DNA of 64,000 bases from assembly GCA_021292105.1 (NCBI GenBank), contig CM037874.1:33220185-33284184 (forward strand), in the 5' to 3' direction. A model generated the notes under the pieces. That model saw nothing but the letters and a program-made list of their open reading frames with translations. It was not told where the DNA came from and searched no databases. Shown here piece after piece: positions 4,309 through 63,648 of this stretch. A program made the position numbers and the translations under genes. This DNA comes from Anadara kagoshimensis. Its lineage: Eukaryota; Mollusca; Bivalvia; Arcoida; Arcidae. The first letter of the stretch is position 1, and each line of letters starts with the position of its first letter.

Positions 4309-4330
4309 AAATTAGTCTAAAAGATACAAA

Positions 4331-4783
4331 ATGGCTAGAAACATTGTGAAATTTAATATAAGGGGAACTAAGTTCGAAACGAATAAGGATACCTTACAGA
4401 AAACGCCCGGAACAGTACTTTATGATCTTGATTCGCTACATAATGCTTACGACTGCGTGAATAAGGAATATTTTTTCGATAGAGACCCAGAGGTTTTTAA
4501 TATCATATTGAATTATTTTAATCATGGAAAACTTCATGTTCCAAAGAACATTTGTGGAGCTTTACTCCGTGAAGAACTTAAATTTTGGAGTGTTCCTCAT
4601 AGCCATGTTGCAGATTGCTGTTGGCGAGCGTTTTATGCCCATGAGGAAGAGCAGGATGTTTTAGAGGACTTGAGGAAGGCTAACACTGATATTTTATATG
4701 CAGGGAAACATGTGAACAAGACAACTGCGAGATATAAACTATGGATGCTTCTAGATAATCCTGGTTCGTCGTCACATGCAAAG
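4331..4783 (+). CDS. Kv channel exon 1 (T1 tetramerisation domain)
   Basis: 151 codons. The ATG at 4331 begins the T1 motif within four residues (VKFNIRGTKFET). The aromatic-acidic YFFDRDP motif typical of Kv T1 is present. The zinc ligands His, Cys and CysCys keep exact family spacing. The frame runs on only 12 codons past the donor, so the intron boundary at AAG|GTAACT is well supported. Confidence 0.88.
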
Positions 4784-14335: not shown

Positions 14336-17300
14336 CTGTTATTATAATTCTAAAAAGATAAAATATTAAACAAAGTATCAGTTTTCCAATTTACTCAATG
14401 AAATTACTTAACCACTGAATTTTCTAGAAATGGCAATTATAGTGTTATAATTTCAATTACTGTGCCAACAAATTTCAATTCAACTCATCATAGTTTCTTA
14501 AAACACTTCAACAATGTTTTAATGAGTTAAACTCCTGTTGATCCTGCAACATGGTCACAACATGGTCGAAGTGATTGCAGAAAGTACAGGACTTCAACGT
14601 TGTCCTCTTGCAAGGAAGCCTAATGCACGTAAGCTAAACTATATTATTTTCAAACACTCGCACTTTCATAACTTACCCTTAAAACAAATGCGTGTGGGTG
14701 TGATCAACATATTCAAGTGATTGTCCTTTTGTCTATTGTTGGGGGTTAGTCCGTAGCTACAGTACATACAAGTCGTAATTGTAACACTAAGCTAAAGAAT
14801 TAGAACCAAACCGACAGTATATCTTGGTCTATAGGGTGCTATATCTCGAAACTATCTATCTGTCGACAACTTTTCAAATACTAGCTATCCATGCCTCGAC
14901 CATTGTACAGCCGAGCGTCGTCTTCTTTTCGTAAGCTCAGTCTTACAATGTCAGTTATTAGTGAAGTGGCAGATATTGCGACTTTGCAGTGTGCTCAGGA
15001 CAATGTGAAGGGGGCTTCAAGTATTATGGCTGTCGTGGTACGGGCTATCGGATTTTAATGACTCTTCCGAAAGACGCCGTGACTTTCATTTCTAAATGCC
15101 GGTTGCTTGGCAAAAGCACAGCCATTGCCTATTTTTACATTTTTGTCAGACCATGTTTTGAACTACGGCATCCCACACAAGATACGAGGACTTTTCGCAA
15201 TAAAGTTTATTATATAAAACCTACACTCACCGTCACACAGAACGTCGATAAGTTTCTCCCACAATAATGCTAACTGGTCATAATCCGGAACGTGGAAAAA
15301 CGATTGCTTGCTGGGTTCATCCGCCATTAAAACAACTTCTTTCTGTGGATCCTCATTACCAACGTGTACTACATACAGCTCTATACCATGGGTTTTTGCA
15401 CGCTGTGCTTCCTTTAAAGTGCGAGTTGGTTCTTCCAGGTTCCCATCAATTATCATAACTGCCATTTTCTTTGCGCCTTTTCTGCCACCCCTTTCTACAC
15501 TAAACGCGTTTCTCCTCATTTCTCTGAGTATTGTAGAGAAGTCGGTTGCTTCAAGACCATTAAGACCTTCCTTAAGACTAGTCCTATTTGAGTACTTGTT
15601 AAGCTGGAAGCCCATATTGTGCTCTAAACATTCAGCAGACATTAATCCAACTCTTATTTTATCATGACCTATATCGAATTCATTAAAAAGTTTGTTTAAA
15701 AATTCCACTGTCTTCCGGCTGTTCTTTCTGCCAGCATTTAAACTGTCCAACAAAAATATCAAATCCGCAGCTTGGCGTGATCCACAGGCTAAAAGGTAAA
15801 AAGGTACATAATAAAGCATTTAATAAATAAAAAAATAAAACAAGTTTGTTATATCAGTAATGTCACTTATAAACCAAACGAGTTTCAGAAGATTAAAAAA
15901 AAAACCGTTTCTAAAGTATTTCTTGATTAGCGTAAAGATTTAAGAGTTATCTCCCATTCGTCATTTCTGTTCTGTACATGATAGTTATTTTTCAAGTACT
16001 GTAATATCATACCGGTATATCATTTTTGAATTTATAACCATACAATTGTCATATACCATTTTTGAATGTATTACATGGATAAATATAAAAAAAATGTATA
16101 TGACAGTATGAGGAAACTAGTTGATTTTGGTTTTAAATAATCGCAAAAATATTGAGATAATCAGACAATATTCAAGAAATTTCATCAGAAAGAAAAATAA
16201 ATAAATGAACTGAACAGATCTGGTGGATATTAACCACCGAGAAATAATTTTTTGAATTCGTAGTGATCCGTCAGTGCGCTTTTTAGGCCACGCGGTCACA
16301 AATGCCCACTAGTAAAGGTTTAAAAATATATAGGCACTTACATTGGTCAGCTATGGAAAGTTTTGCTTGAGGTGCTGAAATAAAACGGAACAAAATTCTA
16401 TTAAATAAAGTAAAAGTTTAACTGCGTTTTCTTATTCTCTCTTACATGTAGTAGCGTGAAGGAAACTTTTTACTAAAACCATTTTTAAGTTTCAATAAAT
16501 TTGTTGTCGAAAGACGCAGAATCTGCAAGTCATGATCATGGCTTAGCAACACCAATTACAAGGGAAGTTACTTATTTAGGATATCCGCAGAGGTCTTTTG
16601 ATGTAACAATTTCATTTACACCTTTAACGCTAGACAAAATTGTTTCTGTTGTTAACGGCACTTTAAATTGATCATATGAGACCGTGTTACGACAGAACCT
16701 GCTTCCCTTTCTAAAATACGGTATTTCTCCGCTTCCAGGTTAGAGGTGGTCGATTCTACCCTCTCAAAAACAAATATCCACATGATGATCATCCAACCTT
16801 CACTACTTGGTAGCGATGTAGATTTTGTTTTCATCAAACATATGTTAAGATTTCATCACTGCCTGACACTTATAAGATCTAGAGATCTTTAAACATCAAA
16901 AATGGAGAAATTGGAAGTTCAGAATATTTCTTTATCAAGAAAACAGACTTACCACTACAAATTTCTAAAGTATTTTCTGCCAAGATATTCTGGAGTCCGT
17001 CAAAAGAGGATAGCTCATGGAGTAAAGCATCAGGACCAGGTCCAGCAATTGCCCGTATTTCCTCTACGTCATATCCTCTTCCTACTGCTATAGGGATAAC
17101 CTTGATTCCAGAATTACGTGTCTTTGTTGCTTGTTTTTTCGTCCTCTCCTTGTAAATAGATTCCCGGCCTGTCATCAAAATAACGATCTGTGCTACTTCA
17201 CGTCGAGCTACGCTCCGTCGGAAAGTTTTAGTGCGGATGTACCACAATGCTTCATCAATGCGGGATCCACCGGCTGACCTTTGAACTTGACTTAAAACGT

Positions 17301-20300
17301 TGCTGATTTTTTCTGCATTATAATATTCATTTAGGTCAAAGATATTCAGAATTTGATCACTGTACAAAATGGCTGACACTCTTGTCATATCCGGTCCTAG
17401 GTTAAAGTTACTTATAACATCTTTAGCGAAATTGAGTTGTCGGTAGAAATCAGGTGTCGACACGGCGCTTGAAGAATCGAATGCAAAAACAACATCAACT
17501 CGAGCCATCTCACAAACTGAAAGGAACAAAAACAAAATTATCAGTTTGAGCTTTCTCACAAAAAAACAACATAATTTATATATCAACTAAGTCGGTATAG
17601 ATTATTTTTGACTTGATGTTATATTAATATTATGATATCCCTGTATCACCAACTATAATGATGTTGTTTCATTCTCAATTTTGATTACAAACATTGCGGT
17701 TTTATCTCACTCTGCACGCATGAGGTATTAACCTTTCGGAGCATCTCGCCTCATTCTTGCCTGATTGAAGTTCACGTGTTTTACTGTCAGTTTTCAGAAC
17801 ATATTTCACAATTTTTGACAGGTTTTAATTCGGAAAGTTTATAATATGACATACCTCTTCTGGCAACGTCCAGTAATGAGGTTGTTGTTGTCGTCGGCGT
17901 TGTGGTAGTAGCTGAAATGGAAACAATATACATGTACTTTGTAAAACAAAGGCAAAAAAAAGACTATCAGAATGGGGTAAGAATAAAAGGCACACACGAG
18001 CACATGATTAGTACTGGAGACCGAGGTGTAGTGACCGAGTTAAGGTGTCAGCCTTCAGTACCTAAGATGTCTCATCGGTGTGGACCCGAACCAGTCCACC
18101 TCATGTGAAAAGTATGTTTTACGTTATCATTTTTTCTTGCTGAAGGTCTTAAACGGTTGGATCGATACCAGTTTAATGTAATGAGTGGTCTGTGGTGTTC
18201 ACATTGTGGTGAGTGGGTGTATTAGAACTCCGAAGGTCGCAATCTCGATGCACGGGTACAAAGATAAAAAATACTTGCACAAACTAACGCATTACATGAG
18301 CCTGTGTTTAACCATCATTAGACCCCAATTTATATCTAAATAAATGTTGTATGTTTGAATTTCGCTCGGAAAATTTTAGATTCTAGTATGAGAAATTTTG
18401 TTACTTCGCTTACCGAAGGGCGGTGGATTTTTATTATTATTATTTTTTTAGTACACATAAATCTTCGACACCGAATTGGCTTACCATAGCTATAGGCTTA
18501 CGGTTTTCTCACGGCACTTTGATTTTCTCCATCCTACAAGAACTGGCCGTCTTGCTTAAGTGACAGAATCTGGAATGGGATGTAACAGGCCATATCGTTA
18601 CATCCATCTTGGATACCGTAACGTAAATATTTAAATAATGCGTCGTAATGGACGGTATCAAAAGTCAATGTCCATTTGTAGTGGAAAAGAAGTGTTTTTG
18701 TTATTTTCAGGTGTCTATTGTCAGTTTTTCTATTTCTCCAACATTATTGTTACCATTTTAGAAAGTTGACAACAATATTGTCACTTTTCTAACTGCCACA
18801 GTTCTTTTATTAAACTCTTACAAAATCATTGAATATTTCACCTTTCTAAAATTGAAGTTTGATTAATTTTAGGGAAACATGAAAACTACCATACCGGGTA
18901 TGCAATTACAATCTGACAGTGACAACTTACACTTCTGCAAGAAATGAAACTTGACGGCTAATATATTATCGTTCATAGTTTTTCACTTCCAATGTCCAGT
19001 TGTAAAAATATAACAATATACTTACTCGTTGGTGTCGTTGTTGTTGTAGTCGTGGTTGTGGTTGTTTTTGGAGGTGCAACTGTAAATAGATAAGTTAATC
19101 ATCAAAGCAAAATATTCCAGAGGACGCGTTCGTCTGAAGCCTCATATTTTTACTTTGAAAAATCCAAATTGGTTTCATAATTTTTGCATGAAATTATATT
19201 TAATGTGACATAATTCCTGATTAAAATTACATTTTGTTTCTTATATTTTCTGTTCATGGCAAAAATGGAACATGAAGTGTATGGCATAAAAATTAGGTTG
19301 TTTTAATTCTCTGTGCCTAGTTTTCAAAATCGGTAGCTTTATAATTTACATGTCTTTGAAATTTGACATTTTTATTTACAGTTTTTAAACAATAAGATAA
19401 CTAACGTTCAGTACAGACTTGTCGAAAGTCTAACAATAAGCTAGCGAAATATAACGCAATCGGCTCTCCTCTCAACAGCTTTTCGGCAGCTGTTGTCTAG
19501 CTGTCGGCAGCTTTTAGGCAACTAACTATCCATATCTCAGCCAATCGGAAGCCGAGATTCGACTTCTTATAGTTAGCTTTATGTTAAACTTTCGTCAGAT
19601 CTGCACTGTCTGTATTACAAACCTTTACAAGTTCTTACAGCAAGTTCTTTCCTAATTGAATCGAGAGCAGCAAAATTGTTCACATGGAAATAATTTTGGG
19701 TGAAAGGCGGGCTTGCGATCATTTGTAATTCCGATGGATTCGTTTTCGAACCAATTCCAATTGAAAATGCATGGATATTTTGTCGTTTAGCCCTCAAAGC
19801 TTCAAATACTGTCTTCATTCTTTGTGTGGACTTGCCGTCGGTCAACAGAATCGCCACCTTTGCAACTGACGGATCATTTCTCCCGCCATGTTTATGTTTA
19901 AACATACGGGTACGCATGTGCCGTAAGGCCGCTGCAGTACTTGTTAAAAACCCTCGTCTTGGTCTCAAATCTCTGATGGCTGCTAAAAGTTCCTCTTTGT
20001 CATAATAATCATTCAGATTGATTTCAGTATTGACCCATGTACTATAACTCCCGACGCCAACTCTTGTTGTATTTTTGCCGATTTCAAACATTGATGTTAT
20101 ATTCTCTACAAAATTGATCTGTCTCCTTAAGTCTGGAGTCCATATACTGTTTGAGGCGTCCAGTAAAAAGACGATATCTGCTGGTTTGTTTCCGCAATAA
20201 TATTCCAATTCTGAAAAACCAAAGTACATACAATTACATTTATAGGAGTTAAGTAATAGTGTTAAACGTCCCAGCCAAGAATATTTCATTTATATGGAGA

Positions 20301-28882: not shown

Positions 28883-31800
28883 TCATTCATCATCAGTGTC
28901 TTCACTATCACTACTGTCGGATTCACGTACATCCTCATCTTCTCCCATGTCATCCTCTGTAAAAGTTGTACTGTCCATCTTCAGTCTTATATCTTTCGGA
29001 ATCTGTTCACCTTCAAACCAGTGAATCGCATACTTGTTATTTTCTTTTTTCCATCCATTTTCTTGTGGAGTATTTAATGTAGGACAACTGCAATTGGCAT
29101 GTTTCCAAAAATATGCAACATATTCTGTTCGGAGGATTTTCTGAACAAGAACACTTTTACAAGGAGGTAGTGAACTCGGATCGGCTCCTTTGAGCTTTTC
29201 TAATGGGTCAGTTTGATTTGTTGGAGCGTATTTCTCTCTGAAAATGGCAAATCGTGCCTCATTTACTGTTTTAATGTTTTTTTTGCCATACATTTCACAG
29301 ACAAAAGATTCCATTACCTTCATATCTCTTTCATTAACTCTTTGATTTGTTCCAATATTTGAGAAAACGCTTCTGAAAGTTGCACTTTTTTCAACGATAT
29401 TATAAGGCCTAATTTTACCTTTTCTAAGAAATGCTGCAGTATAATCACATCCAGTGAAAGCATGGATAGCTGGAAGAACTTGGCACATTTCGATCCCAAT
29501 TTCATTGGACAGTTTTGTTAGATCAATAAATCGCCTAGTATTGGTGCCGTCAGTGCCTGAATCCATCCATATGTTTGCATGTATTTGGTGACAATGATAC
29601 AATAAAATAACCATTACATCCGTGTCATTTGCTCTAACCACTACGTTAGGAGAATCGGACCTTGAGGCAATGTATTGCACATGTAAGGTGATCCTGGTAT
29701 CTGCCTCCTCGTGGGTACAGGCAAGATTGGACACTTCACTGCACACTACTGTTGCATCATTTTCGCAATAGAATTGATGGCAGTGGTCCTCTGTTGCATA
29801 ATATAATGTATGGCCTGCAAGAATGTCAGCATAGTTATCATTCTTCCATTCTTGTAGCAAAAACGATAGTAATGACCTCTTGAAATTAGCAGATTTCAAA
29901 GCTGAACGGAAATCATGAGGTCGCTTTTGTTTTGGGCCCATTACTACAATATCTGGTCCACTGCTCTCTCCTCGCATATCTCTTTCAATATCTTTGATGG
30001 ATGGATGGACATATGTGTCACAAACAAAGTGTATTTCTTTTGCCAGTTTACATAATAGCTTGAGAATGGTTTTGGCTACACCTTCAAAAGTATCTGGTAG
30101 GTTTGACAGCAACTGTATAAGGAACATGGCATCAACGACATAAGCATCAATTTGATTTGCAGCTGGAGGATCAGAATGAGCCTTGCTCTCTAACATTTTC
30201 ATAAGTATTGATTTGTCGGTTTTATTCATATTCCCGTCAATTTGTGCAAGAGCTGGCGGCACGGGAGTGAGAGGATATTCAAAAACTTTCTGCAAGTTTA
30301 TATCTGTTGTCGTTGCCAAAAACAAAAGCCTACCAAATAGATCACGTGAACACTGTAGCTGTATGATTTTCTTTGCTTTCACCTCAACCCGAACCTTAAG
30401 TGCCAAAGATGCAAAAGTGCGCAATTTGTTTCTTGTAATAGGTTTTTCAAATCTAGAGGGATCTGCAAAACAGCCATTTCTAAAGTCGTGAAAAGATTGC
30501 TCGCCATATTTTACACAACTAAGTATCTCATTTTTCACATCATCTTTGACTCTGTTACCAGTTGATATGCACAGGAGATCCTCATTTCTTATCTCTGTAT
30601 CAAACGGATTCTTAGTTGCTTTAATACAGTCGATCAAACTACTTACATCTTTATTATCTCTCTGAATTCGCGACGGCTTGAGCTCTTGATTCACATCCCC
30701 CTTTTTCCGGATTCCAGTTTTTGAGAGAAGAGCACCAACGATAGCACTGCGGACACTTCGTGTAATCATCCATCTTCGCCTGGCCGTATATGACTGGCTG
30801 AATGCAGAAATGCCAGTTAGACGAGATGCAGCATCAGCATTGATTGTCTGCTCAAGTGTCATGTCCACTGGAATTCTGGAAAATGATTTATTCGAGCGTC
30901 TTATAGACAAACCACCATTCTCAAGCATTGCTCTTGCTTGTGGATGACTTATATCAATGTTAAGTAAATTTAAGTGATAGCGTGTCATCCATCTTGCATA
31001 GTTTGGTCTATTAGCTGCAAAAAATACTGGACACATTTTTCCTAAGCAGTAAGTAAATAAAGGTAGATCGTTAGTTCGACAAGATCTACTGAAAAGTAAC
31101 AGAAGTTCAACTAATTCAATATACATAAACCAATACTGTGCTGTTGATCCATGGTTTCCAGTTCTTGTGTCATTGGAAAAGGCTTCATACATATCAAAAA
31201 TAGATTTTAAATTTTCTTGCTCTAGAACGTTTTGCATTTCTTCTGAAGAAGTATTTGTAATGAATTGTTCTAACTGCTCGTATAAAGATTCAGATATCTG
31301 ACCATGCTCTTCCAGAAAAGACCGAAAATGGAGAATACGGAAAGAAAGAGATAATATAGTATGCATTCTCTGACATCTGTTATAATGCTTCCCTTTTATG
31401 AACCCATTTAGAGACCCTTCTGCCAGAACTTTGGTCTCGGTTAGCACATATGGTCCGCCAGAGCCCTCAATTAAGTGACCAAGAGCGCCAAAATATGCCA
31501 ACATTATATGGAAAGGACCAAAACATATGAAAATATTGTCGTACTTTGGTGATTCTTCCGATTGTATCTGCATCGCTGGTTTAGCTATGGCAAGATCATA
31601 GTGGACAATTGCTGTGTTATCAGAACATTCCCGTGCCACAATCTGCGATCGACGTAATGTTTCCGACACCACATCTAATCGGGTCGGTGGCAAACTTATA
31701 TTGTCCATATAGCCTATCACTTGCTCTGGTAGATGATCTACTGTGATTAGAGAATTCCATCCTGACCACATGGGTATATTAGAAAATAAATGGTGACAAA

Positions 31801-33520
31801 TCACCCATGTTAAATCCCTTTTTCTGGTCTCATTTAAATTAGAGGGGTCCGAAATTGCTTTTACGGGATATTGAAATTTTGTTATTTTTGGACGCTTTCT
31901 GTAAGATTCTAAAATAGGGTCCTCAATATCTAAAGAGCGTTTACGTTTCAATGACTTTGTTTGTGTAGTGGATACTTGTGGAATTCCTAGAGAGTCCCCC
32001 ATTGAATGTTGTTCGTCGGGAGTGTTCTGGTAACATATTCCAACTGTGTCGTGCAAAGTTCCGCTTCCAGACAAAGTCTCGGTGTTTTCATCATAATTAT
32101 CCCAAGCCGTTCCGGTTGACAAGTTTGGAATTTTCAGTAATCCATCAGGAGTTAGCTGATTCCTGTCTGATATTGTCATTGCAAGTTCAGTTTCAAGTGT
32201 CTCCGCAACATGGTAACTTATTGAGTGCCCTAAATGATTTAGTACTTCAATAATTTTCCTACTACCAGTCATACTTTTAAAACCCAGTCCAAGACATAAA
32301 TGTTTTGATGGCTTTATTTCGCCATTGGTTACAGCAAACAAAGCATCATCTGCTGCTGAACTGATGCATCTATTCATTCTTTCAGAAGGTTCTTTTGTTG
32401 AAGACCCTGTATATAGAGTTTTAAAAAACTGCATAAGTATGTCTGGGGGGTTAGCTTGGCCTTTCTGTATTTCATTTACAGTCAATGGGTTCTGTAATTG
32501 GGGACATGTCTTTGACATTTCTAATATTGTATTTCGCAACTGGTATGCAGCTTCAGTGACTTTGGAATTTAATAAAAACGTATTATGGAAACCTATAATC
32601 TGATCTGTATCTAGAAAGCTTGGATATAATATTTTGCCTTGTCGTTTACCTATTTTACTCATGCAAATATCATCTTTGAAGTGATTTAGAAGTTTTACTT
32701 CTAAAGTCTGGATGGTATATGAGGAGCAATCAAGACCAATGTCCATCAGCATTGTAGTGTAATATTCATACAAGGAGGCAATTGTTACAGCTTGACCTTG
32801 TGCTATAACGTTTTTATTTATGTATTCGGTCAACCATTTAAATGCTTTTTCGTGTCCTAGCCTAATGTTGCCATATTCTGTCTTAGCAGACCCGGGTATA
32901 CACCTCTCAGAAAGATTTAAGTAATGTTTTCGGCAGCTATGGTGATATTTAACCTCTTTAGCAACAAAATCTATATCACAAACTCTGGCAATCATATCTG
33001 TATCACCCAGAACCATTGCAGCATTTTTTATTTTTTCTCCCGCTTCCAAACTTTCACAATTGCCTAACTGTTCCCTTTTCTTACCCTTCGTCAGGAGGCC
33101 ACAAAACAAACATACGGGAAGAAAAATACCGGAGGAGGAAGTTTCGTCCGATAAATGTTCAGTGTGGGATCTTAAAGTGTAAGAAACTTCTTCTACTTCT
33201 ACAGTGGAAAAAGACTCTAGTTCTTTTTTTGAGACAGCAGTGAAGTTCTTGTAACACATTCTGTGATAACCATTGGTTTTAGGATCAAAGTTTTGAGGAA
33301 GATCTTGACAAATTTGTTTATATTTGTGGGATTTTGTTTTCGAAAGACGATATTCAGCAACTTTTGCCACTTTACTCCATGTTGTTTCATCAAAAGGTTT
33401 AATTTCTATATCTTGGAAACGTTTATCGACATGAAGGCAACAAACAAGATTTGTTTCATCTGTGCTATCGCCCTGTAATATCTGTTTCCCCTTAGATGTA
33501 TCCAGCCGTGTGCTGGCCAT
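28883..33520 (-). CDS. 1545-aa transposon protein: N-terminal Cys/His clusters and C-terminal FEN1/XPG-like nuclease
   Basis: Intact, intronless, ATG start at 33520. The N-terminus has two Cys/His clusters: CC at 27-28, C71, H86, C89; then C137, C140, C181, H193/H194, C196. These probably bind zinc. The middle (about 200-1100) is unassigned. From about 1125 to 1420 there is a series fitting a FEN1/XPG/asteroid-type PIN nuclease: VVDAMFLI (about 1130), FVCDTY (about 1166), EEADTRITLH (about 1272), ANDTDVMVILL (about 1300), FTGCDYTAAF (about 1358). These supply the expected acidic metal ligands. The C-terminus is a Ser/Asp/Glu-rich acidic tail. It presumably acts in the nucleus on the element's own ends. 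The PIN reading is pattern recognition; a structure prediction would settle it. Confidence 0.85.
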   Translation of the reverse strand: MASTRLDTSKGKQILQGDSTDETNLVCCLHVDKRFQDIEIKPFDETTWSKVAKVAEYRLSKTKSHKYKQICQDLPQNFDPKTNGYHRMCYKNFTAVSKKELESFSTVEVEEVSYTLRSHTEHLSDETSSSGIFLPVCLFCGLLTKGKKREQLGNCESLEAGEKIKNAAMVLGDTDMIARVCDIDFVAKEVKYHHSCRKHYLNLSERCIPGSAKTEYGNIRLGHEKAFKWLTEYINKNVIAQGQAVTIASLYEYYTTMLMDIGLDCSSYTIQTLEVKLLNHFKDDICMSKIGKRQGKILYPSFLDTDQIIGFHNTFLLNSKVTEAAYQLRNTILEMSKTCPQLQNPLTVNEIQKGQANPPDILMQFFKTLYTGSSTKEPSERMNRCISSAADDALFAVTNGEIKPSKHLCLGLGFKSMTGSRKIIEVLNHLGHSISYHVAETLETELAMTISDRNQLTPDGLLKIPNLSTGTAWDNYDENTETLSGSGTLHDTVGICYQNTPDEQHSMGDSLGIPQVSTTQTKSLKRKRSLDIEDPILESYRKRPKITKFQYPVKAISDPSNLNETRKRDLTWVICHHLFSNIPMWSGWNSLITVDHLPEQVIGYMDNISLPPTRLDVVSETLRRSQIVARECSDNTAIVHYDLAIAKPAMQIQSEESPKYDNIFICFGPFHIMLAYFGALGHLIEGSGGPYVLTETKVLAEGSLNGFIKGKHYNRCQRMHTILSLSFRILHFRSFLEEHGQISESLYEQLEQFITNTSSEEMQNVLEQENLKSIFDMYEAFSNDTRTGNHGSTAQYWFMYIELVELLLLFSRSCRTNDLPLFTYCLGKMCPVFFAANRPNYARWMTRYHLNLLNIDISHPQARAMLENGGLSIRRSNKSFSRIPVDMTLEQTINADAASRLTGISAFSQSYTARRRWMITRSVRSAIVGALLSKTGIRKKGDVNQELKPSRIQRDNKDVSSLIDCIKATKNPFDTEIRNEDLLCISTGNRVKDDVKNEILSCVKYGEQSFHDFRNGCFADPSRFEKPITRNKLRTFASLALKVRVEVKAKKIIQLQCSRDLFGRLLFLATTTDINLQKVFEYPLTPVPPALAQIDGNMNKTDKSILMKMLESKAHSDPPAANQIDAYVVDAMFLIQLLSNLPDTFEGVAKTILKLLCKLAKEIHFVCDTYVHPSIKDIERDMRGESSGPDIVVMGPKQKRPHDFRSALKSANFKRSLLSFLLQEWKNDNYADILAGHTLYYATEDHCHQFYCENDATVVCSEVSNLACTHEEADTRITLHVQYIASRSDSPNVVVRANDTDVMVILLYHCHQIHANIWMDSGTDGTNTRRFIDLTKLSNEIGIEMCQVLPAIHAFTGCDYTAAFLRKGKIRPYNIVEKSATFRSVFSNIGTNQRVNERDMKVMESFVCEMYGKKNIKTVNEARFAIFREKYAPTNQTDPLEKLKGADPSSLPPCKSVLVQKILRTEYVAYFWKHANCSCPTLNTPQENGWKKENNKYAIHWFEGEQIPKDIRLKMDSTTFTEDDMGEDEDVRESDSSDSEDTDDE

Positions 33521-34014
33521 TTTGCAACACTTCTAATTGAAATGACAATGAGTTATCACAAACAAATCGCAAAATATTATTTACAGTGATTTTAATTCAG
33601 TCACGGAATCAAATAGAATTAACAAACAGATTACTTATCTGCGTCAAAACTTCATTGATTCTATTGTGAACACGGATTCTTTTTAAAAACAAATATTAAA
33701 TAAAATCAACTTGTTCACACGAAATATAAACGGTAACAAAACAATAGAAAAAAGGGGTGAATAGTTTTTTCTTACTTATCATAAACAACAACCATATGAA
33801 AGTATCTATAATTGCAACCACGTGTGATTTGCAATGACAGAAAACGTAACACAAACGCTTTGCGCAGCGCCATCTGCCGAGTCATACAAAAGGGCGTGGC
33901 ACTATCATTGCTTAATAATACAAAAAATCAAAGCATTGAATAAACAAGCTAACAGCGTAATTTACTATATGTTTCAAGTACAAATTTACGTTATAACACT
34001 CTACCGTGTTTAAA
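33521..34014. other. 5' leader/promoter region of the transposon ORF
   Basis: About 490 bp between the start codon and the right TIR. AT-rich, no ORF or repeat recognised. Any promoter for the ORF must lie here or in the right TIR. Confidence 0.4.
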
Positions 34015-54310: not shown

Positions 54311-54654
54311 AATTAAAAAATATATATAACCGTAAATTGTCGAATTTTTAAAAAACCTCGTATTTCTTTAACAATCTCTGGCCCCTATGCACTGCTCTAT
54401 AACGTTGACTATCTTAATATCTTTTCATTTTTTAAAATTAATTCGTTATACAAGGTGTGTTTTCCCCAACACGTGTATTTTTGCACAATTTTCTTTAAAA
54501 AATGCAACAAATATTTTATAAACTCTTAAATTATCAATTCTTCTTTATTTCTATTGATAAATCTTCACACTTGTGTAGGTAATTTCATAATTATACCCTT
54601 CTTTCATGCTTTTCAACCAAATGGTTTTCACTTGAATTTTCCTACTTATATTAC

Positions 54655-54945
54655 CCTAATATCGGTTGTATCCAATACAATATCAGGATTCGATACCTCA
54701 ACATTATCTGAACATGATACAAAAAGTTCGTTAAATACAATCATAAGATCTATATCACTTTCTGGCAGTGACAATCCTTCTGCCGTACTTCCACTGCATA
54801 TATGATTCATTGAAGTTTGGGAAGAACATGCTCGATAAAAAATATTGTCCACTAACGCAAAACACTGTCTTCTGATTAGAACTTGCTCCTCTATTCCAAT
54901 AAATCTACTCAGTTCATTACATATCATAGCCGATATGTTCTCCAT
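54655..54945 (-). CDS. Mab-21/cGAS-like nucleotidyltransferase, first exon only
   Basis: ATG at 54945, 97 codons to a possible donor AGG|GTAATA; the open frame itself continues to a stop at 54646. The sequence ICSGSTAEGLSLPESDID is the nucleotidyltransferase signature of Mab-21 domain proteins and cGAS-like receptors (GS motif followed by acidic D-x-D). The N-terminal helix (MENISAMICNELSRFIG) is also typical of mollusc Mab-21-like proteins. cGAS-like members make cyclic dinucleotides; many Mab-21 proteins have no known activity. No downstream exon (spine helix, second half) was recognised in the 54 kb downstream. It may therefore be a truncated gene or a pseudogene fragment. Confidence 0.6.
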
Positions 54946-55150
54946 GTTAAACGACTGTTAGTTGTATCTTAACACGTTTTGGGAATTCCCAAATCTTAAT
55001 TAACCAGGTACTGGTTCTTTTCCTTTAATTGTGTCTGTATAATATCTCAAATGGAGAGACTAGAATTTTCTAGCTTTATATAAATTGCTGTTTCTATAAT
55101 TTTTTTTCGCAATTTTACATAATCACAAAACTATAAGATATAGTTGGGTA

Positions 55151-55559: not shown

Positions 55560-55916
55560 CTATCAACAGCTGTGTGACATGAACTTTGCGGTTAGCAAGC
55601 AGACCATGTTAGCGACTAAAATTCACTGAACAGACACAGGCACTAAACATACCTGTTACATGATCAACAGCAAGTGGAAGTAAACACAACTTAAATATAG
55701 CCATATTAGTAGTTAATGTTTGAAAATTAGTGTCAATTTCAAAGAACCTTTATATATTGAAAAAGGGGCATATGAGAGTGTAAATGGTGTAATTTACATG
55801 TTATACCAATTTTACTTTTACAGCACTAGACGGACGTTTCGGAATATAATTCCTCATCAGTAGTGTTTGGACGAAAATTATGAAACCAAAACCTTATTTC
55901 CAAGATGTTGAAAAGA
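55151..55916. mobile_element. Family V TIR element (about 770 bp)
   Basis: Arms of about 120 bp: 'cttttcaacatcttcaaaat', 'gatgaggaattgaattcc' and 'cggccgtctagtgctgtaaa' on the left return as reverse complements at 55800-55916. The centre is AT-rich with an AC/TA microsatellite (55505-55555). It lies between the Mab-21-like exon and the Death-domain exon. Confidence 0.75.
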
Positions 55917-56133: not shown

Positions 56134-56513
56134 TTATTTCAGCTCAAGTGCAATATCTGCGGGTGACAACTGAAATATGTTGTTTTTGTTACCAATTTCA
56201 CTGGATAAGTTGTATTCTTTATCAATAACCTGTATTATGTCTTGTCTTCCAATTTCATTCAATGCATCGACAATTTCTGAAATCATAATCTTGCTCATGT
56301 CTTCATCATTTGTGTTGTTATTTGTTACTTTCAATCGTCTATCATGCTTCCACTTAATTATCAGTCCATCATTTTGACGCGAGTCTGTGGCGTTAAACAT
56401 ACTTTGTATGACTTCAATATCTCTTCTTTCCACACCCAGATAAATTACAAACCGATGCAAATCGGAACCAAGATTTGTCGTCAATAAATGCATTCCTTTA
56501 TCTGACAGTATTC
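56134..56513 (-). CDS. VWA-Death gene, terminal exon (Death domain)
   Basis: Acceptor 'attattccag', 126 codons to TAA at 56134-56136. The pattern LLTTNLGSDLHRFVIYLGV, then DIEVIQ, IIKWKHDRRL and IVDALNEIGRQDIIQVI matches the six-helix Death-domain consensus. The usual Trp after the GxD of helix 2 is Leu. The tail NIFQLSPADIALELK is unassigned. A minus-strand AATAAA at 56004-56009 lies about 125 bases past the stop. Confidence 0.8.
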
Positions 56514-59500
56514 CTGGAATAATAAAATGTATTGAAATTAAGAACAAACAAACCAGTTCATGTTCAAATCAGAATCGTAAAAGAAGATAAACAACTTTGA
56601 AAACTGCCAATCTGAGTAAAACACGTGAACTAAAAAAAAGGTAAGGCCGTGTGCTTAAGAAGAACAGGTACCTCCTATCCAGTTAGCTACACCCACCGGT
56701 GACGTGTAAAATTTTTAAGTGTTGATAAAAGAGAGCTCGGTGTATTCAATGTTCAGTATAAAATTCACAAATGTGTACCATGAGACATGTACTTAGTATT
56801 AACCAAGAACACGAAGCAAATCAATACAACCTAATCCCAAAACAACCAAATTAGAAAAAACACGTATTGTGACCACTGATTATACAACCCCTCTACTTTT
56901 AGTGAACATTACGGGTTAATGTTTAGTAGAGTGATTATGGTACTATTCGAGGGCCGAACAATTCTATTGATTTTACAAGTGGACCATAAAAAGCAAAAAT
57001 AATCCTGATTTGACCAAAGAATCAACTAACCACTTTTAAGATTGTCAAAATATCACGATTTGACATCCTTCAAAGAAATTTCTCGCATAGAGATTGGTTG
57101 ACTTGCCGGGGAACATAGTACTATGTTCGGAAATCTGCCGGGGTATATTACCGCACGTGACATTTAGCGGTAAAAGAGAAGTAATACGTGTACATTGCGG
57201 GCGTCTAGTTACGGTAAAAAAAAACTTGGCGACAACGTGAGCAAGTCACGCAAAATACAAAATGTAATTAAAACGATCCAACCGGTAACGCCCTAAAGAG
57301 TGACAAAAACGTTATACAGGGTTTTGGCAGGTTACACGGTCCCATGTATCCCGTCAAAGATGATTTTCCCTTCGCCTGCGACTCAGAGCACTGACAAGGT
57401 ACACGGGGCTGTGTATCCTGCCAAAACCCTGTATAACTTATATTATTGATTGAATAGGGGTTTACTCTCCAGTCAAGAATATTTTCCTAATATCGAGATG
57501 TCACCATCTAAAGGTGATGAAGTGGCAGACATGTTGATCTTTGCAGTGGGCTCAGGACACTGTGCTGGGAGGGGTCTTTAATGTACCACATCTACCGTTC
57601 TAAGTCTCTTCCGAAAGACCCAATGAGTTTCATTTCTAAATGCCGAGTGTTTGACAAAAAAAATCCACTAGCCATTTTTAAGTCTTGGCAAGACACCGAA
57701 CAAGGTTCGAACCTACCAGCAAAACACTATGACTTATATCATGGTTGTTATTCTACACTTCGTAAGGATTAATTATGTGAGCCCTAGATCTACGCCATGG
57801 TGCTATAGACCAAATCCAAACCTATTCACCAAGCTACTATAACACAAGTAGGTGTTATGATCACAGCTACTATAATAATACATAATAATTAATCTGTCTA
57901 CTCTGCATACTTTAACACAATAAACCAAACGCAAATATACATTTGCCGACTAGCCGTGCGCTGCTATACGAACGGGTCAACATTTATTACACATAAATAT
58001 TGGTATAAGAAAATATTAAACAAGATAGTATTGACAAATAAATGCTTAGTGTAAAATAACATTAAACAATGTATTATGAATAACAAGCGACTATAACGCC
58101 AAAGCGAGACATTCGACCCACCCGTGTTAATGCAAATACATAGTAGACAACAAATTCCCGCTATACTTCGAACCGCGGGGATTTAAAATTATCAAAAAAC
58201 ATAAACATAAGCTCTAGAGAGCGTTTGATTACCTGAAAATTATAGATGTAGAAATTTGTGCGATAGAAATAAAGTTACCTTTATCTCGGTTCTTTTTCCT
58301 TATTATTTTGCTGATAGGTAATTCGTATTTTTTGATATTATATCTATAAAAAAGAAAACATTTGAATAACTATAGTTCAAAACGTTCAAATTAAATTCTT
58401 TGAACATTTAAACATCTTTTTCGTTACTTAGGGCCAAGTGGTACAAATGGGCACTATCCTACAAGTTTTTGAATTTTCCATACCTGTAAAACTTTTCGAG
58501 GCGCATCTGAAAATGTAAAAAAATAGAGGGGTCCCCTTTTTACTTTTTTAGCTATAAAGCGTCAAAAATGTAACAAATCTTGAAATTTTAACAAATGCTA
58601 AATAGGAAATCGCACATTTTTAGGCTCTGGAAAATTAAAAAAGTGTAGAAAAATAACAGTTTGTCCTACAAGTTTTTGAAAAAACTAATAACATAATGTA
58701 GTTGAAAATTAGAATTTTCTGAAAATGTAAAGATAAACATTTGTCCCCTTGCTTGATTTTCCGCCATAAAACTTCAAAGACGTTATCTGATGCGATAATA
58801 TGGCCAAAATTAGCAAAAAGTCATAATTTTTATGATATCATAAAAGAATCGGCAAACTTGCGAACTTTAACGTCATCATGCCGTAAACTAGCATTGAGGT
58901 ATTTCTCATGCGGCATCTTGCTGTAATACTTTATTTTTATGATTTTTATATACAAATTACTTTATAAATTAGATTATTTTGTATTCCTAGTCACTTAAAA
59001 TATAGAAATAATGATATAAGAAACATTATTACTTCGGAATAGCAGAAGAACAAAGCCTTATCATCCGAAATGAGAGTCAATTAATGATACTTCAAACATG
59101 CAAGAAAAGGGCGAGTCCGAATCGGAGAAATACTAGTATTGTTAATCAATTAAATTTTGTGAAAAAAAACATCTTTATCAATTTGAAGGTATCGCATGCA
59201 ATTTAGGTGAATCATTGGTATCTGATAAATTTAGCAGTGTACTGTATTTATGATACTTTTCTAGTATATTTTCATTTAATCTTTGAATTGATAGACATAA
59301 TCTATTTTATTTCATGTAAATAATGTATCAAAAATTATTACAATTACTGTAAGTTACAACTTAGATTCAATTCAATTTCAATTCAATTTATTCATTAATT
59401 CACTCAGCCACTCAAAGAGTGGAACATGAGGGCATACAATATAATACATAATTTACAATACTGGCTAACTGATATTACATTACAATATTACAATATAATT

Positions 59501-62500
59501 ATAATATAATATAGTATAAAATATGAATGCATATTAAAGTAACTATGATAAGTTATGACAACTTACTAATTCAATGGAAATCTTTTGATATAATATGAAA
59601 AAATATGGAAATATTATAAAACAATTTGATATTACACAGACTTAGCATTCTATAAAATTTGTCATATGACGAGTATTTTAAATAATAACTTGGTATGTAT
59701 TTGTTTCTAATGTTTGCATATTTACTACAGATAAATAAAAAATGATAGAATAATACCATTGAAACGCATACATGTAGATTTGTACACGTCATGCGTAACG
59801 TTAGAGTCAATTTGTACCACTTGGCCTTAAGTATTTTCTGACAAGAAATAAGGACAACCTGCTTCTCACTTATATCGAGACGTCGCCAGCTATAGACGAA
59901 GGCGAACTAATCATGCCTGTGCGTTGCACTGATGGCATTATATACAGCAGGTTTCATTATCGTGCCACGCCTACCGTGACATGATATCTTATATATTTAA
60001 AGTCTATACCGAAGGAACCGTGACTTTCATTTTGTAATGCCGAGGCATTCGCAAAAAAACAGTCACTACCCACGTACCCAAGTATTAGGTCAAACCCGTG
60101 AGGGGTTCGAACCCGTATCTTCCACTTGCGGAGCGAGCACTCTACCAACTGAGCTACCAGAGTGGTATCAAAGAAAATATGGCACATATTTTATACTATT
60201 TAATTTTGCATAAGTAATCATGTAACGAAAACAAAGTTAATTAAAACCTATCTTATCATGCATAAGTTAATCATTATCACCGCAGTAGTTGTTGACACTA
60301 AAGAGCATATGCAACTAATAAAATTTTTAAAATAAGAAAATTAAGATGTAACGGCATTGCTGTTTACAAAGAAGCTGAAATAGCTAATCAAAAACAAACA
60401 TACTAATCCATGTCCGAATCACAATCCAGAAGCACAGTAAAAACTTTGGAACTGACAAGTTAGGTTAGACACGTGAACTTCCACCAAGAAAGTGAGGCCG
60501 GGTGCTCCGGAAGGGTAAGCACGTGTTATTCGATTCTATAAATTTACGACATATATTTACCGGTCAGGAATTGCATGGTAATTATGGTCTGATAACGAGA
60601 TAAAATTTCATTACAGAGGAAAAAATGGTCAACGTTAATATTAGTATTATTACTAAACCTATTTTACGTTTGCAGAACTAGACGGTCATTTCGTTTCGGA
60701 ATAAAATACCTTAAATGCAGTGCTCGCACCAAAATTGTATTGTGAAAATATAAATATTTTTAGATCTTGAAATGAGGTAAAAGAAGGACTAAAATTTATG
60801 TTACCAAATATGTTTTGAAGGTATTTTAAAAGAAACCTGATGTCTTATTCACTGCACAAAATTTATACATAAAACACACGTGTGAGCTTGTTAGGAAACA
60901 TTGTAAAAATAGGACTCACGATATAAATAAAAAACAAACATACTTATCCATGTCCGAATCACAATCCAGAAGCAAAGTTAAAACTTTGGAACTGATAAGT
61001 TCCACCAGGGAAGTGAGGTCGGGTGATCTGGAAGGGTAAGCACCTCCTATTTAGCTAGCTACACCCGTTTCGTGTGTAATCAAAATTGTGTGAACATGGA
61101 ACGTCAAATATATACAGGGCGATCCTAGACACAGAGACATCAGACTTATCAACAAATCAAATTGTTTACCTTTTCCAAGCAAAGACCGCTCCAACTGTCC
61201 CAATAAACGCTGTCAATAGTGACAAGGTGATGGAAATTATAACAACTGAAAATGAAAAAGGGTTACTTTCAAACAAAAGAATGTTTTATATAATAACAAT
61301 TTTAAAGATAACAAATGTATATTATGTACTTGTAGATATTATTATCAAATATTGGTAAAACATTGATCATATTTCTATAATTTTGTTCTTGTAATATAAT
61401 ACTTTTACTATATGACATCACACTACGTCTAGTCGTTGTTAATGAATACCATAATATAAACCATTTAAAACTGCATATCCAATCAAACCAGGATAAAAAG
61501 CTATTTGGTTTAAATTATCAGCTGTTTTTCTGTCACTTAAAACATTTTCCGAATCTACTGAAATATTCTTTCATATTTCGAAACAATATTAAGACACGAA
61601 TTCAATCATACAAAATCACCAAAATCAAGCCACAATCACTAAAGCAAAGTCTAAATTTGCAAATTACGTTGAACACGCGAATGTACACCAGGGAAGTGAG
61701 GCCGGGTGCTGTGAAAAGGTTGGTTTGCTGGCTACATTAGCCTCGTGTGAAATCAAAATTGATAATGAAAGGAACATAGAATTGTGCGACATCGTACAGT
61801 ATTGAACTGATTTTTTAGGAATCCAAAAAAATTGAATTCACAAGCCGGTACCTGTTGTATTATCAGCCACTCTAGATACTGGAACGCCTGAAATTTAAAT
61901 AAAAAATAGTGACGCCAATGTTTCATAATCCATTCGAATTTTGTTTCGAAAGTAAAATTTATATTAGAGATCATGAATACGTAATGTACCGAAAGTGTGA
62001 ATCTGTATGGTTATTTCGATTGCGATGGTTTACCTTTCGTCGCTTCTTGTGTTTTTGCGCCTTTCTGTTACCATTTGACATTTAAATCATCTCCAATATT
62101 ATTGACTCTATCATAACATACAGTGATGATCATGTCTCGGAAAAGGGTAACAAAAAGAGAAAAAGTGAAAATCCTGAAAATCCAGGGATTTATAATCCCA
62201 AAATGGTAAAAATGGCAATGAATCTTGGAAACTATTATCGTTTTCTTTGGGCCAAGACTCTACTATGATTTCTGATCTAAAAATTTGTAAATATTTTTGT
62301 ATAGAATATTTACGGCATTCGTTGAACGACCGTTTTTTATATTCATGCGAAGGATCAATGTACTGAACTGGCCTATTTTTTTTAACTTTTGATAGTATTT
62401 AGCTATTATTATCTCATTCTTGAGCAATGTCTAGCATAAAACTGGCAAAAATAGTGCTGGCATATGGTGTTCTTGTATCAGATGCTATGATATGAAATGA

Positions 62501-63375
62501 AATCTAGACACAGGCAACTGTTTTACATGTACTTTGCATTCGTAAAAGAAAAAAGTGAACAATACTTTGTTGTTAGTGTTTGGCACCTACCTCTATACAC
62601 CACGTGTATAATGGCATCTTTAAAAGTATTGGGATCTTCTCCGATATAACATTGTCCAGATACTCCCGCTATTTTACAAATTTCATCAATCTCCTCTTGA
62701 TTTATCAAGCTTAAACCAAGCGTTGTTACATGGACCCCAGCGGCTCTGGTAGCTCTTGCTTCTGCTAATGTCTGTTCAGGATTAACATTCGACTTCCCGC
62801 CTGTTATCAGTATCACTTCGTCAGGTGCATTCGATCTCCCACCAAACCCGACATCAAACATTTCTTCTCGGGTAACTTTAAGGGCGGAAGCTGTGTTTCT
62901 TGCAGTCCTGGATACAGGAAACTTTTTTTCTGTTTCCTTTACAGAATTAATTATGTCATCAAATGTGGTATAGTTGTTCAAATAAAACTGTACCTCAGAC
63001 TTGTCAGTAAATACAACAAGCCCAACTCTAAGCTTTCCACCATCAACATCTCCTTCTTTAGCAATATCTTTCATAAAACGAATGGACTGGTTAAAATGTT
63101 TATCCATTGCTAACGAACCATCCACGACGAATATCAAATCTTTCTGAAAGTTCAAAGCCGCTGTAATGAAAAATGTAAAAAAAAAAAAATAAAGCAATAA
63201 AACCATACAATAATTGTTGCAAGAGGATTACTCTTTGCCATTTTTGAGGTAAAGAATTTAATGTAGGGTAATTGTGTCGACTATAAATATGCTATAGTAA
63301 AGCTTGTTACCAATAGGGATACCTTTATGAACGGAGCATCCTGCTTTTATCAAATCCTCGGGGATATCACAGACT
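56134..63375 (-). CDS. VWA-transmembrane-Death domain receptor, 5' partial (at least 392 aa)
   Basis: Minus-strand exons in order: 63323-63375, 62591-63160, 61852-61887, 61170-61245, 58279-58343, 56134-56513. Phases 2-1, 1-1, 1-1, 1-2, 2-1 and 1-stop fit together without a frame break. The product has a short Cys-containing N-terminal piece (VCDIPEDLIKAGCSVHK), one VWA domain (190 codons) and a 12-residue linker. Then come a 21-residue hydrophobic helix (VIISITLSLLTAFIGTV...) ending in WKR, a Lys/Arg-rich juxtamembrane stretch, and a C-terminal Death domain. By the positive-inside rule it is type I: VWA outside, Death domain in the cytosol. Death domains recruit other Death-domain adaptors in apoptosis and NF-kB signalling. 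A VWA-TM-Death order is not one I recognise from vertebrates. The signal peptide exon is expected beyond base 64000. Confidence 0.72.
56545..56715 (+). repeat. Family R repeat
   Basis: Plus-strand copy ('agttcatgttcaaatcagaa', 'ggtaaggccgtgtgctt', 'ccggtgacgtgta'), diverged, just inside the intron before the Death-domain exon. Nothing is recognised in 56720-57060. Confidence 0.5.
57066..57444. repeat. Family U element with foldback 3' part
   Basis: Second copy of the 10336-10707 element in the same orientation ('gattggttgacttgccgg', 'tttagcggtaaaagagaag'). The 3' foldback pairs 'gggttttggcaggttacac' with 'cctgccaaaaccc'. Confidence 0.65.
57446..57725 (-). repeat. SINE family S1
   Basis: Minus orientation, directly after the U element: 'tactctccagtcaagaatat', 'cagtgggctcaggacactg', 'aaggttcgaacctac' (B-box-like). 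Head degraded. Bases 57730-58275 contain nothing recognisable. Confidence 0.6.
58279..58343 (-). CDS. VWA-Death gene, juxtamembrane exon
   Basis: 65-nt exon between 'tttttatag' and GTAACT. It enters in phase 2 and exits in phase 1, exactly bridging the TM exon and the Death-domain exon. It encodes YNIKKYELPISKIIRKKNRD, strongly basic as expected just inside the membrane. Confidence 0.6.
58432..59827. mobile_element. 1.4-kb TIR element (non-coding)
   Basis: 'ggccaagtggtacaaat' at the left (58434) returns as 'atttgtaccacttggcc' at the right (to 59824). TTA lies outside both ends. The interior is AT-rich with no ORF of note. A tract at 59365-59450 ('ttcaattcaatttattcatt' and 'ccactcaaagagtgg') resembles the 3' end of a LINE in minus orientation. 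Confidence 0.6.
59858..60166 (-). repeat. SINE family S1
   Basis: Minus orientation with a good head: 'gaggggttcgaacccg' (B box) and 'ctctaccaactgagctacc' (A box). The 3' end is truncated at 'cttctcacttatatcgag', close to the 1.4-kb TIR element. Confidence 0.7.
60385..60530 (+). repeat. Family R repeat
   Basis: Very close to the family consensus: 'atccatgtccgaatcacaat', 'cacgtgaacttccacc', 'gaggccgggtgctccgg'. It stops after 'gtaagcacgtg'. Confidence 0.65.
60650..60800. repeat. Family V arm
   Basis: 'gcagaactagacggtcattt' then 'gcagtgctcgcaccaaaatt': one arm of the V element, in the orientation of the right arm at 55800. Confidence 0.55.
60925..61140 (+). repeat. Family R repeat, near full length
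   Basis: Begins 'aaacaaacatacttatcc' and ends 'gggcgatcctagacacagag'. A short internal deletion removes the segment after 'ggaactgataagttccacc'. It ends about 30 bases from the transmembrane exon. Confidence 0.65.
61170..61245 (-). CDS. VWA-Death gene, transmembrane exon
   Basis: 76-nt exon between 'cattttcag' and GTAAAC, phase 1 in and 2 out. The translation is one continuous hydrophobic helix of about 21 residues ending FAWK, with the next residue Arg completed across the intron. Confidence 0.75.
61605..61790 (+). repeat. Family R repeat, diverged
   Basis: 'caccagggaagtgaggccgg' and 'gaaatcaaaattgataatg' identify it. It lies 60 bases from the linker exon at 61852. Confidence 0.5.
61852..61887 (-). 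CDS. VWA-Death gene, linker exon
   Basis: 36-nt, phase 1-1 exon between 'aaatttcag' and GTACCG, encoding VPVSRVADNTT. Support is splice signals and phase only; a donor GTACCG is weak. The remaining intron to 62590 shows nothing recognisable. Confidence 0.45.
62591..63160 (-). CDS. VWA-Death gene, VWA exon
   Basis: 190 codons, phase 1-1, between 'ttcattacag' and GTAGGT. The VWA strands KDLIFVVDGSLAMD, KLRVGLVVFTD and DEVILITGGKSN are clear. MIDAS: DxSxS reads DGSLA, the Thr loop is kept (RTARNTASAL), and the Asp of TDG is Gly. Metal binding is probably weakened. Confidence 0.88.
63323..63375 (-). CDS. VWA-Death gene, exon 5' of the VWA
   Basis: 53-nt exon between 'ttgtctacag' and GTATCC. It is open only in the phase (2 in, 1 out) that fits the VWA exon. 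It encodes VCDIPEDLIKAGCSVHK, whose two Cys could form a small disulfide loop. Confidence 0.5.
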
Positions 63376-63547: not shown

Positions 63548-63648
63548 TAATTTACCAATTTCGGTCCAAGCACTACTGGTGAAATATCGTATTCCGAAAC
63601 GGCCGTCTAGTGTTGTAAAATTTAATCTGGTATAATATATAATTTATT
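63548..63648. repeat. Family V arm
   Basis: 'tttcggtccaagcactactg' and 'cggccgtctagtgttgtaaa' match the left arm of the V element at 55151. The orientation is opposite to the arm at 60650, so the pair brackets about 3 kb containing VWA-Death exons. Confidence 0.6.

Follow-up and report, generated by a model that had tools for sequence, protein, structure and literature searches.

Death-domain receptors are clustered by their ligands, and this clustering assembles their Death domains with an adaptor. Proteins of the PIDD/CRADD class are intracellular, and VWA proteins of the hemicentin and collagen VI types belong to the extracellular matrix. The gene described here is predicted to combine domains of all these kinds. 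It lies on the minus strand of a 64,000-nucleotide stretch of the Anadara kagoshimensis genome (hereafter the window, G000:C18:33220185-33284184) and continues beyond the right edge of that stretch. We consider it rather likely that its product is a 705-residue type I receptor, activated by clustering, which consists of a signal peptide, two I-set immunoglobulin (Ig) domains, a third Ig-like domain, a VWA domain, a linker, a transmembrane helix, a basic stretch and a Death domain. The locus is most likely to be read as a signalling receptor of this general sort, with either death or alarm as its output. If expressed as modelled, it would unite adhesion-type recognition and Death-domain signalling in a single polypeptide.

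Comparison with described proteins

Among the described receptors, the UNC5 netrin receptors are alike in being type I proteins that carry two Ig domains on the outside of the cell and a Death domain within it, while UNC5B differs by two thrombospondin modules, a ZU5 domain and a UPA/DCC-binding domain (accessible part of PMC8358048). Instead of these, the window gene has a VWA domain together with a third, Ig-like domain, and it is not placed in the UNC5 family. ANTXR1 and ANTXR2 (TEM8/CMG2) are likewise type I proteins with a VWA domain, an Ig-like domain and one transmembrane helix (accessible part of PMC4773787). In the text available, however, their VWA domain precedes the Ig domain and carries a full metal ion-dependent adhesion site (MIDAS), whereas in the window gene the Ig domains come before a VWA domain with three of the five MIDAS positions, and a Death tail follows. 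The reversed domain order and the motif DxSxA...T...G set the gene apart from the ANTXR family.

The L1/neuroglian/Bravo cell adhesion molecules (CAMs) are linked to the window gene through two loci on C7 of the same genome, one of them with a Bravo_FIGEY tail, which have a related ectodomain exon and the same phase-1 junction to the transmembrane exon; they differ in that the window gene has the VWA and 36-nt exons inserted at this point and a Death domain in place of the FIGEY region. Bravo_FIGEY is not among the Pfam matches of the 705-residue product, which is therefore not counted with the L1/neuroglian family, and the nine Pfam families listed for this product (E-values up to 0.5) include no TNFR cysteine-rich domain that would mark the TNF receptor superfamily. 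The likeness to Death domains of the PIDD/CRADD class runs through the nearest relative of the window's Death exon in the same genome, which matches CRADD/PIDD-type domains; the start (I/L)LSDKG and core residues are shared. At two places the window's own domain carries about ten residues more than most of its relatives, and it sits on a transmembrane receptor. Hemicentin resembles the gene in combining VWA with Ig modules (accessible part of PMC3707829), and collagen VI does so in that collagen VI alpha 3 is the best PDB match of the window's VWA domain; unlike the window gene, neither type of protein carries a transmembrane and Death tail.

According to the accessible parts of PMC6836662, PMC9646362 and PMC12373286 taken jointly, the Death-domain gene set is expanded or varied in mussel (Bathymodiolus) and pearl oyster, and Death is the most over-represented domain in the dispensable genes of two amphioxus species, so that a new Death-domain combination is not astonishing. 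A VWA-transmembrane-Death or Ig-VWA-Death receptor was not met in the accessible open-licence literature, which is weak evidence of absence because subscription papers lie mostly outside it. The accessible parts of PMC8195603, PMC9334734 and PMC4346834 likewise contain no such receptor.

Gene structure

The original prediction, made within the window, joined six minus-strand exons of 53, 570, 36, 76, 65 and 380 nt. Joined in this way, they give a stop-free product of 392 residues in the phases that had been stated. Five of them (VWA, linker, transmembrane, juxtamembrane and Death) are retained here, and the first, a supposed Cys loop, is not. In the 30 kb past the right window edge, on the same strand, there are a signal-peptide-like exon, two pairs of exons that each encode an Ig domain, and the exon of a third ectodomain domain. 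The resulting 11 exons (six upstream, five in the window) join on the minus strand into a single 705-residue open frame with the phases 0-1, 1-2, 2-1, 1-2, 2-1, 1-1, 1-1, 1-1, 1-2, 2-1 and 1-stop, and the gene starts about 7.7 kb past the right window edge (Table 1). An in-frame TAA stands two codons ahead of the start ATG of the signal-peptide-like exon, and AATAAA occurs at 56135 and 56009, near the end of the last exon.

Splice sites were ranked by a generic, untrained textbook consensus and are expressed as percentiles among all AG or GT sites scanned. The sites of the five accepted window exons lie at the 95.5th to 99.8th percentile, and the donors of the upstream exons all reach 97.5 or more. 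Those of the Cys-loop exon are at 91.8 and 92.6, the weakest among the six first proposed; since two accepted upstream acceptors are also weak (90.3 and 92.2), site strength alone is insufficient to reject it. The rejection follows from the frame instead. The third ectodomain exon, whose donor is strong (99.0), finishes in phase 1 and splices directly to the VWA exon, whereas the Cys-loop exon needs a phase-2 entry and produces stops when inserted between the two. A rescue could be had with an additional phase 1-2 exon between the same two exons, for which we saw no reason. We conclude that it is a chance exon misread as a Cys loop; the Ig domains, which lie outside the window, had been missed.

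In the interval from the VWA donor to the Death acceptor, nine readings of possible 30-300-nt exons exceed the cut-offs; of the phase-compatible chains that include a transmembrane-like exon, the proposed one scores best. Its score was reached in one of 300 Markov sequences and in none of 37 real window stretches of equal length, which supports the chain without being a blind test, because the cut-offs were fixed after the exon scores were known and exon length was restricted to 30-300 nt. Outside this length range, a 23-nt candidate exon at a repeat edge (58506-58484) has the top summed site score of 44 candidates and could substitute for the juxtamembrane exon in frame; we think that it is due to chance.

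Table 1. Exons of the putative receptor gene and the rejected exon (window coordinates; upstream exons in coordinates extended past the right window edge)
Feature	Position	Strand	Length (nt)	Phase	Remarks
Six upstream exons	71683-71623, 70253-70154, 69250-69057, 67919-67820, 65952-65765, 64870-64523	-			within G000:C18:33284707-33291867
Rejected Cys-loop exon	63323..63375	-	53		breaks the frame between the third ectodomain exon and the VWA exon
VWA exon	62591..63160	-	570	1-1	residues ~331-521 of the 705-residue model; Pfam VWA
Extracellular linker exon	61852..61887	-	36	1-1	has an NTT sequon
Transmembrane exon	61170..61245	-	76	1-2	VVIISITLSLLTAFIGTVGAVFAWKR
Basic juxtamembrane exon	58279..58343	-	65	2-1	
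Last exon	56134..56513	-	380	1-stop	predicted Death domain (Pfam residues 592-677 of the model), short tail, stop TAA

The intron between the transmembrane and juxtamembrane exons contains a tRNA match (60093-60163, minus strand; 29.6 bits against an Rfam cut-off of 29), perhaps part of a short interspersed element, and the Rfam scan yielded nothing apart from it. Two 90-nt inverted repeat arms (55790-55879 and 63557-63646), which are 80% complementary and 7.7 kb apart, flank the region first noted (56134-63375), with more repeat copies in the introns.

Ectodomain and membrane topology

The VWA part of the original prediction is borne out by Pfam on both joined products (4.3e-26 for 392 residues; 1.3e-25 and 91.0 bits, against a cut-off of 23.8, for 705 residues), and the Death part stays below its curated cut-off there. 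The best PDB matches of the VWA domain are collagen VI alpha 3, at the top, proximal thread matrix protein 1 and integrin I domains. Upstream of it, I-set is matched by two stretches of the 705-residue product (2.4e-15); the two Ig domains share 68% identity across 98 aligned columns, suggesting that they arose by duplication within the gene. The third ectodomain domain is Ig-like in our own reading of its Trp and G-Y pattern.

In the transmembrane exon, a hydrophobic segment with a mean Kyte-Doolittle value of 2.2 across 19 residues is followed by a Lys/Arg-rich stretch. By hydropathy and charge only, the product has a signal peptide and a single transmembrane helix with the Death domain on the cytosolic side; ten N-glycosylation sequons precede the helix and three follow it. 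The open frame, the hydrophobic and basic stretches and the signal-peptide-like start agree with the single-pass protein originally proposed, so that a predicted topology with VWA outside and Death inside is well supported as a gene model.

The Death domain of the last exon

The last exon approaches the curated Pfam Death cut-off of 22.6 bits most closely as a 95-residue core (22.3 bits, 1.5e-4), followed by the exon alone (21.4 bits, 2.9e-4), the 144-residue frame (20.7 bits, 4.5e-4), the 392-residue product (17.8 bits, 3.6e-3) and the 705-residue product (16.4 bits, 0.01). Death was matched by none of eight composition shuffles of the exon, yet one of the eight matched another family at 0.003, so that single E-values of this size are untrustworthy.

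The assignment comes through relatives in the same genome. In a search of the whole genome (1.115 Gb in 36 contigs), the exon matches C18:50868786-50869079 with an E-value of 7.5e-5. This relative is itself above the Pfam Death cut-off (30.4 bits, 4.2e-7) and matches CRADD chains (6.6e-4), an LRR-and-death-domain protein (0.0044) and PIDD-CC (0.015). Together with the exons at three of the weaker places from the whole-genome search (L015, L017 and L018), it forms a set of four Death exons, each above the cut-off with 29.8-50.2 bits. In a one-to-one hhalign comparison with these four, the window's exon obtained a probability of 97.6 and an E-value of 4.5e-12 over 92 columns, and the alignment of all five sequences has 11 invariant columns. 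A profile of the five exons matches 29 distinct sequences at 0.01 or better; its matches include chains of LRR-and-death-domain protein/PIDD, CRADD, RIPK1, ankyrin, FADD, THO complex subunit 1 and Fas, in a ranking that says little on the window's own exon as four of the five rows are its relatives. The last exon is counted as a Death domain because it is homologous to above-cut-off Death exons of its own genome, and we regard this homology as the decisive evidence for the prediction. The Death match originally expected at 56134-56513 is thus obtained by way of relatives, the direct Pfam score falling short.

Two observations concern these relatives. L015 sits about 6.4 kb downstream of a 1,061-codon frame that we take to be LRR- and ROCO-like. 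The frame of the nearest relative (L019, C18:50867500-50877499) continues into EIMYWSGHRSEAPV..., a sequence that recurs about 6 kb away in another frame, which suggests a mobile-element insert at the end of that gene.

The coupling of the ectodomain to Death-domain signalling would follow from such an arrangement by analogy with other Death-domain receptors. The Ig and VWA domains may bind a ligand on a neighbouring cell, in the matrix or on a microbe, and clustering in the membrane would bring the Death domains together. The gathered domains could then nucleate an assembly with an adaptor of the CRADD, PIDD, RIPK1 or FADD type, and this assembly would activate a caspase or NF-kB.

Origin of the gene

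Two loci hold relatives of the third ectodomain exon, C7:10572179 (38% identity, 1.1e-11) and C7:9693382 (29%, 9.0e-6). At both, the related exon was read as finishing in phase 1 and the transmembrane exon after it as beginning in that phase, and no VWA match was found in the 30 kb around either of them. Downstream of the second locus there is a Bravo_FIGEY tail (3.8e-11), a mark of the L1/neuroglian genes. The adhesion or recognition module of the original prediction is better grounded by this kinship with an exon of an L1-tailed gene.

Single phase 1-1 exons are the class suited to exon shuffling. In the window gene, two exons of phase 1-1, the VWA exon and the linker of 36 nt, lie between the third ectodomain exon and the transmembrane exon. 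The phases would also permit skipping of the VWA exon. Because the C7 relatives join their transmembrane exon across a phase-1 intron at the very place where the 1-1 VWA exon sits here, the arrangement suggests that exons were shuffled into a CAM-like gene. In this process, a VWA exon of phase 1-1 would have been inserted into the phase-1 intron that separated the transmembrane exon from the last ectodomain exon, and the tail of the CAM-like gene would have been exchanged for a Death-domain exon. The intron phases would thereby show a plausible assembly route from parts with surviving relatives in the same genome, and the creation of new death or alarm receptors by invertebrates would become testable on one gene. 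Less likely than not is a more specific version, in which a CAM-type scaffold of two Ig domains and one Ig-like domain acquired, in a genome rich in Death exons, a shuffled VWA domain and a PIDD/CRADD-class Death tail, and would convert contact with cells, matrix or microbes directly into Death signalling.

Occurrence in the genome

Death places were collected by scoring 150 of 157 candidates, with 97 above the cut-off and the window's own added to make 98. For VWA places similar to the VWA domain of this gene, 105 of 330 candidates were scored and 104 used, the window's Death exon being left out; both lists are lower bounds. A VWA place lies within 100 kb of three of the 98 Death places listed, namely in the window gene (6.5 kb) and at two places on C1 (36.7 and 38.0 kb), so that the window gene is the only close VWA-Death pair among them. 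The two C1 pairs, each on one strand, were rejected as a second copy. In the pair that was partly read, the Death frame runs into a long tail with a hydrophobic stretch at its end, and a long Thr/Ser-rich frame comes after the VWA frame on the same strand. This pair, read apart from the intervening 31 kb, looks like other genes. Dense clusters of Death frames occur at C11:4760708-4819978 and C19:47771105-48431466, consistent with tandem expansion.

Weighing of the alternatives

A number of observations weigh against the proposed receptor. The gene model is a prediction from genomic sequence, and the whole architecture was found once in the genome, with no confirming paralogue. The last exon is below the Pfam Death cut-off in every form tried (16.4-22.3 bits) and for this reason absent from the 97 genome-wide Pfam Death places. 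Its phmmer search against PDB gave two weak matches, neither of them a Death domain, and AlphaFold without an alignment returned poor structures of the exon and its core that are not six-helical (mean pLDDT, the predicted local distance difference test, 53.5 and 57.7). The Death part is overlapped by a chance-like NCBIfam BesC match (0.0017). On both joined products, Death ranks behind a weak GAPT match in the transmembrane region that is below its cut-off (0.001 on the 392-residue and 0.0046 on the 705-residue product), and the four other places found in the whole-genome search with the Death exon (E-values 0.74-2.8) are not significant alone. In the ectodomain, the third domain is Cys-free and has no Pfam match, and the best weak Pfam match of a C7 relative of its exon is PKD_4 (0.0013, below the cut-off); the tail piece tested from the first C7 locus gave no Bravo_FIGEY match. 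The MIDAS of the VWA domain reads DGSLA, T and TGG, which retains three of five positions, compared with D, S, S, T and D in ANTXR2 (accessible part of PMC4773787). Integrin-type metal-dependent binding is doubtful for this reason.

Of the other explanations, the one that survives best, while still unlikely, is a dependence receptor of the UNC5 kind, which would serve adhesion and survival when bound to its ligand and drive apoptosis through its Death domain when free. It overlaps with the signalling receptor that we favour. Two Ig domains outside, one transmembrane helix and a Death domain inside recall UNC5B as described in the accessible part of PMC8358048, yet thrombospondin, ZU5 and UPA are all absent from the Pfam matches of the 705-residue product (E-values up to 0.5), and the cytosolic part comprises merely the basic stretch, the Death domain and the short tail.

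The tail region of L1-type proteins binds ankyrin, and the gene might encode an adhesion protein whose Death-type domain acts as an ankyrin-like scaffold, with no apoptotic or inflammatory output. The relation of its third ectodomain exon to an exon of an L1-tailed gene would fit such a protein, as would the match of the five-exon profile to ankyrin Death domains (1.7e-8). LRR-and-death-domain protein, PIDD-CC, CRADD and RIPK1 outrank ankyrin in that profile, though, with four of its five rows coming from the relatives, and we hold the scaffold to be quite unlikely. Two adjacent genes or a decayed copy, with the VWA and Death exons in separate messenger RNAs, would be compatible with a joined model read from genomic DNA and with other possible intronic exons such as the top-scoring 23-nt candidate, but are very improbable given 11 exons in a single open frame with matching phases, the rarity of comparable chains in the control stretches and Markov sequences, and a Death frame that has no ATG ahead of the domain's own first residues.

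Other features of the window

Three more VWA domains are encoded by minus-strand exons at 19618-20289, 16882-17586 and 15166-15819 (Pfam 3.1e-41, 2.6e-29 and 2.0e-25), which are of phase 1-1 with flanking Cys residues and probably belong to one multi-VWA gene. The first of these keeps all five MIDAS positions and the other two do not. All four VWA domains noted in the window are thus single phase 1-1 exons, the phases of three having been read by eye. A viral contig scan and phage DNA and protein searches gave nothing useful.

Just downstream of the receptor gene, a minus-strand frame (54649-54957) matches the nucleotidyltransferase domain NTP_transf_2 (1.6e-5) and is possibly a cGAS/Mab21-like or related gene. 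A 1,549-codon open frame on the same strand (28886-33532) has a weak DUF6589 match (3e-4, below the cut-off) and perhaps represents a mobile-element gene. On the plus strand, frames with BTB_2 (4316-4792) and Ion_trans (8688-9593) matches probably belong to a voltage-gated potassium channel gene.

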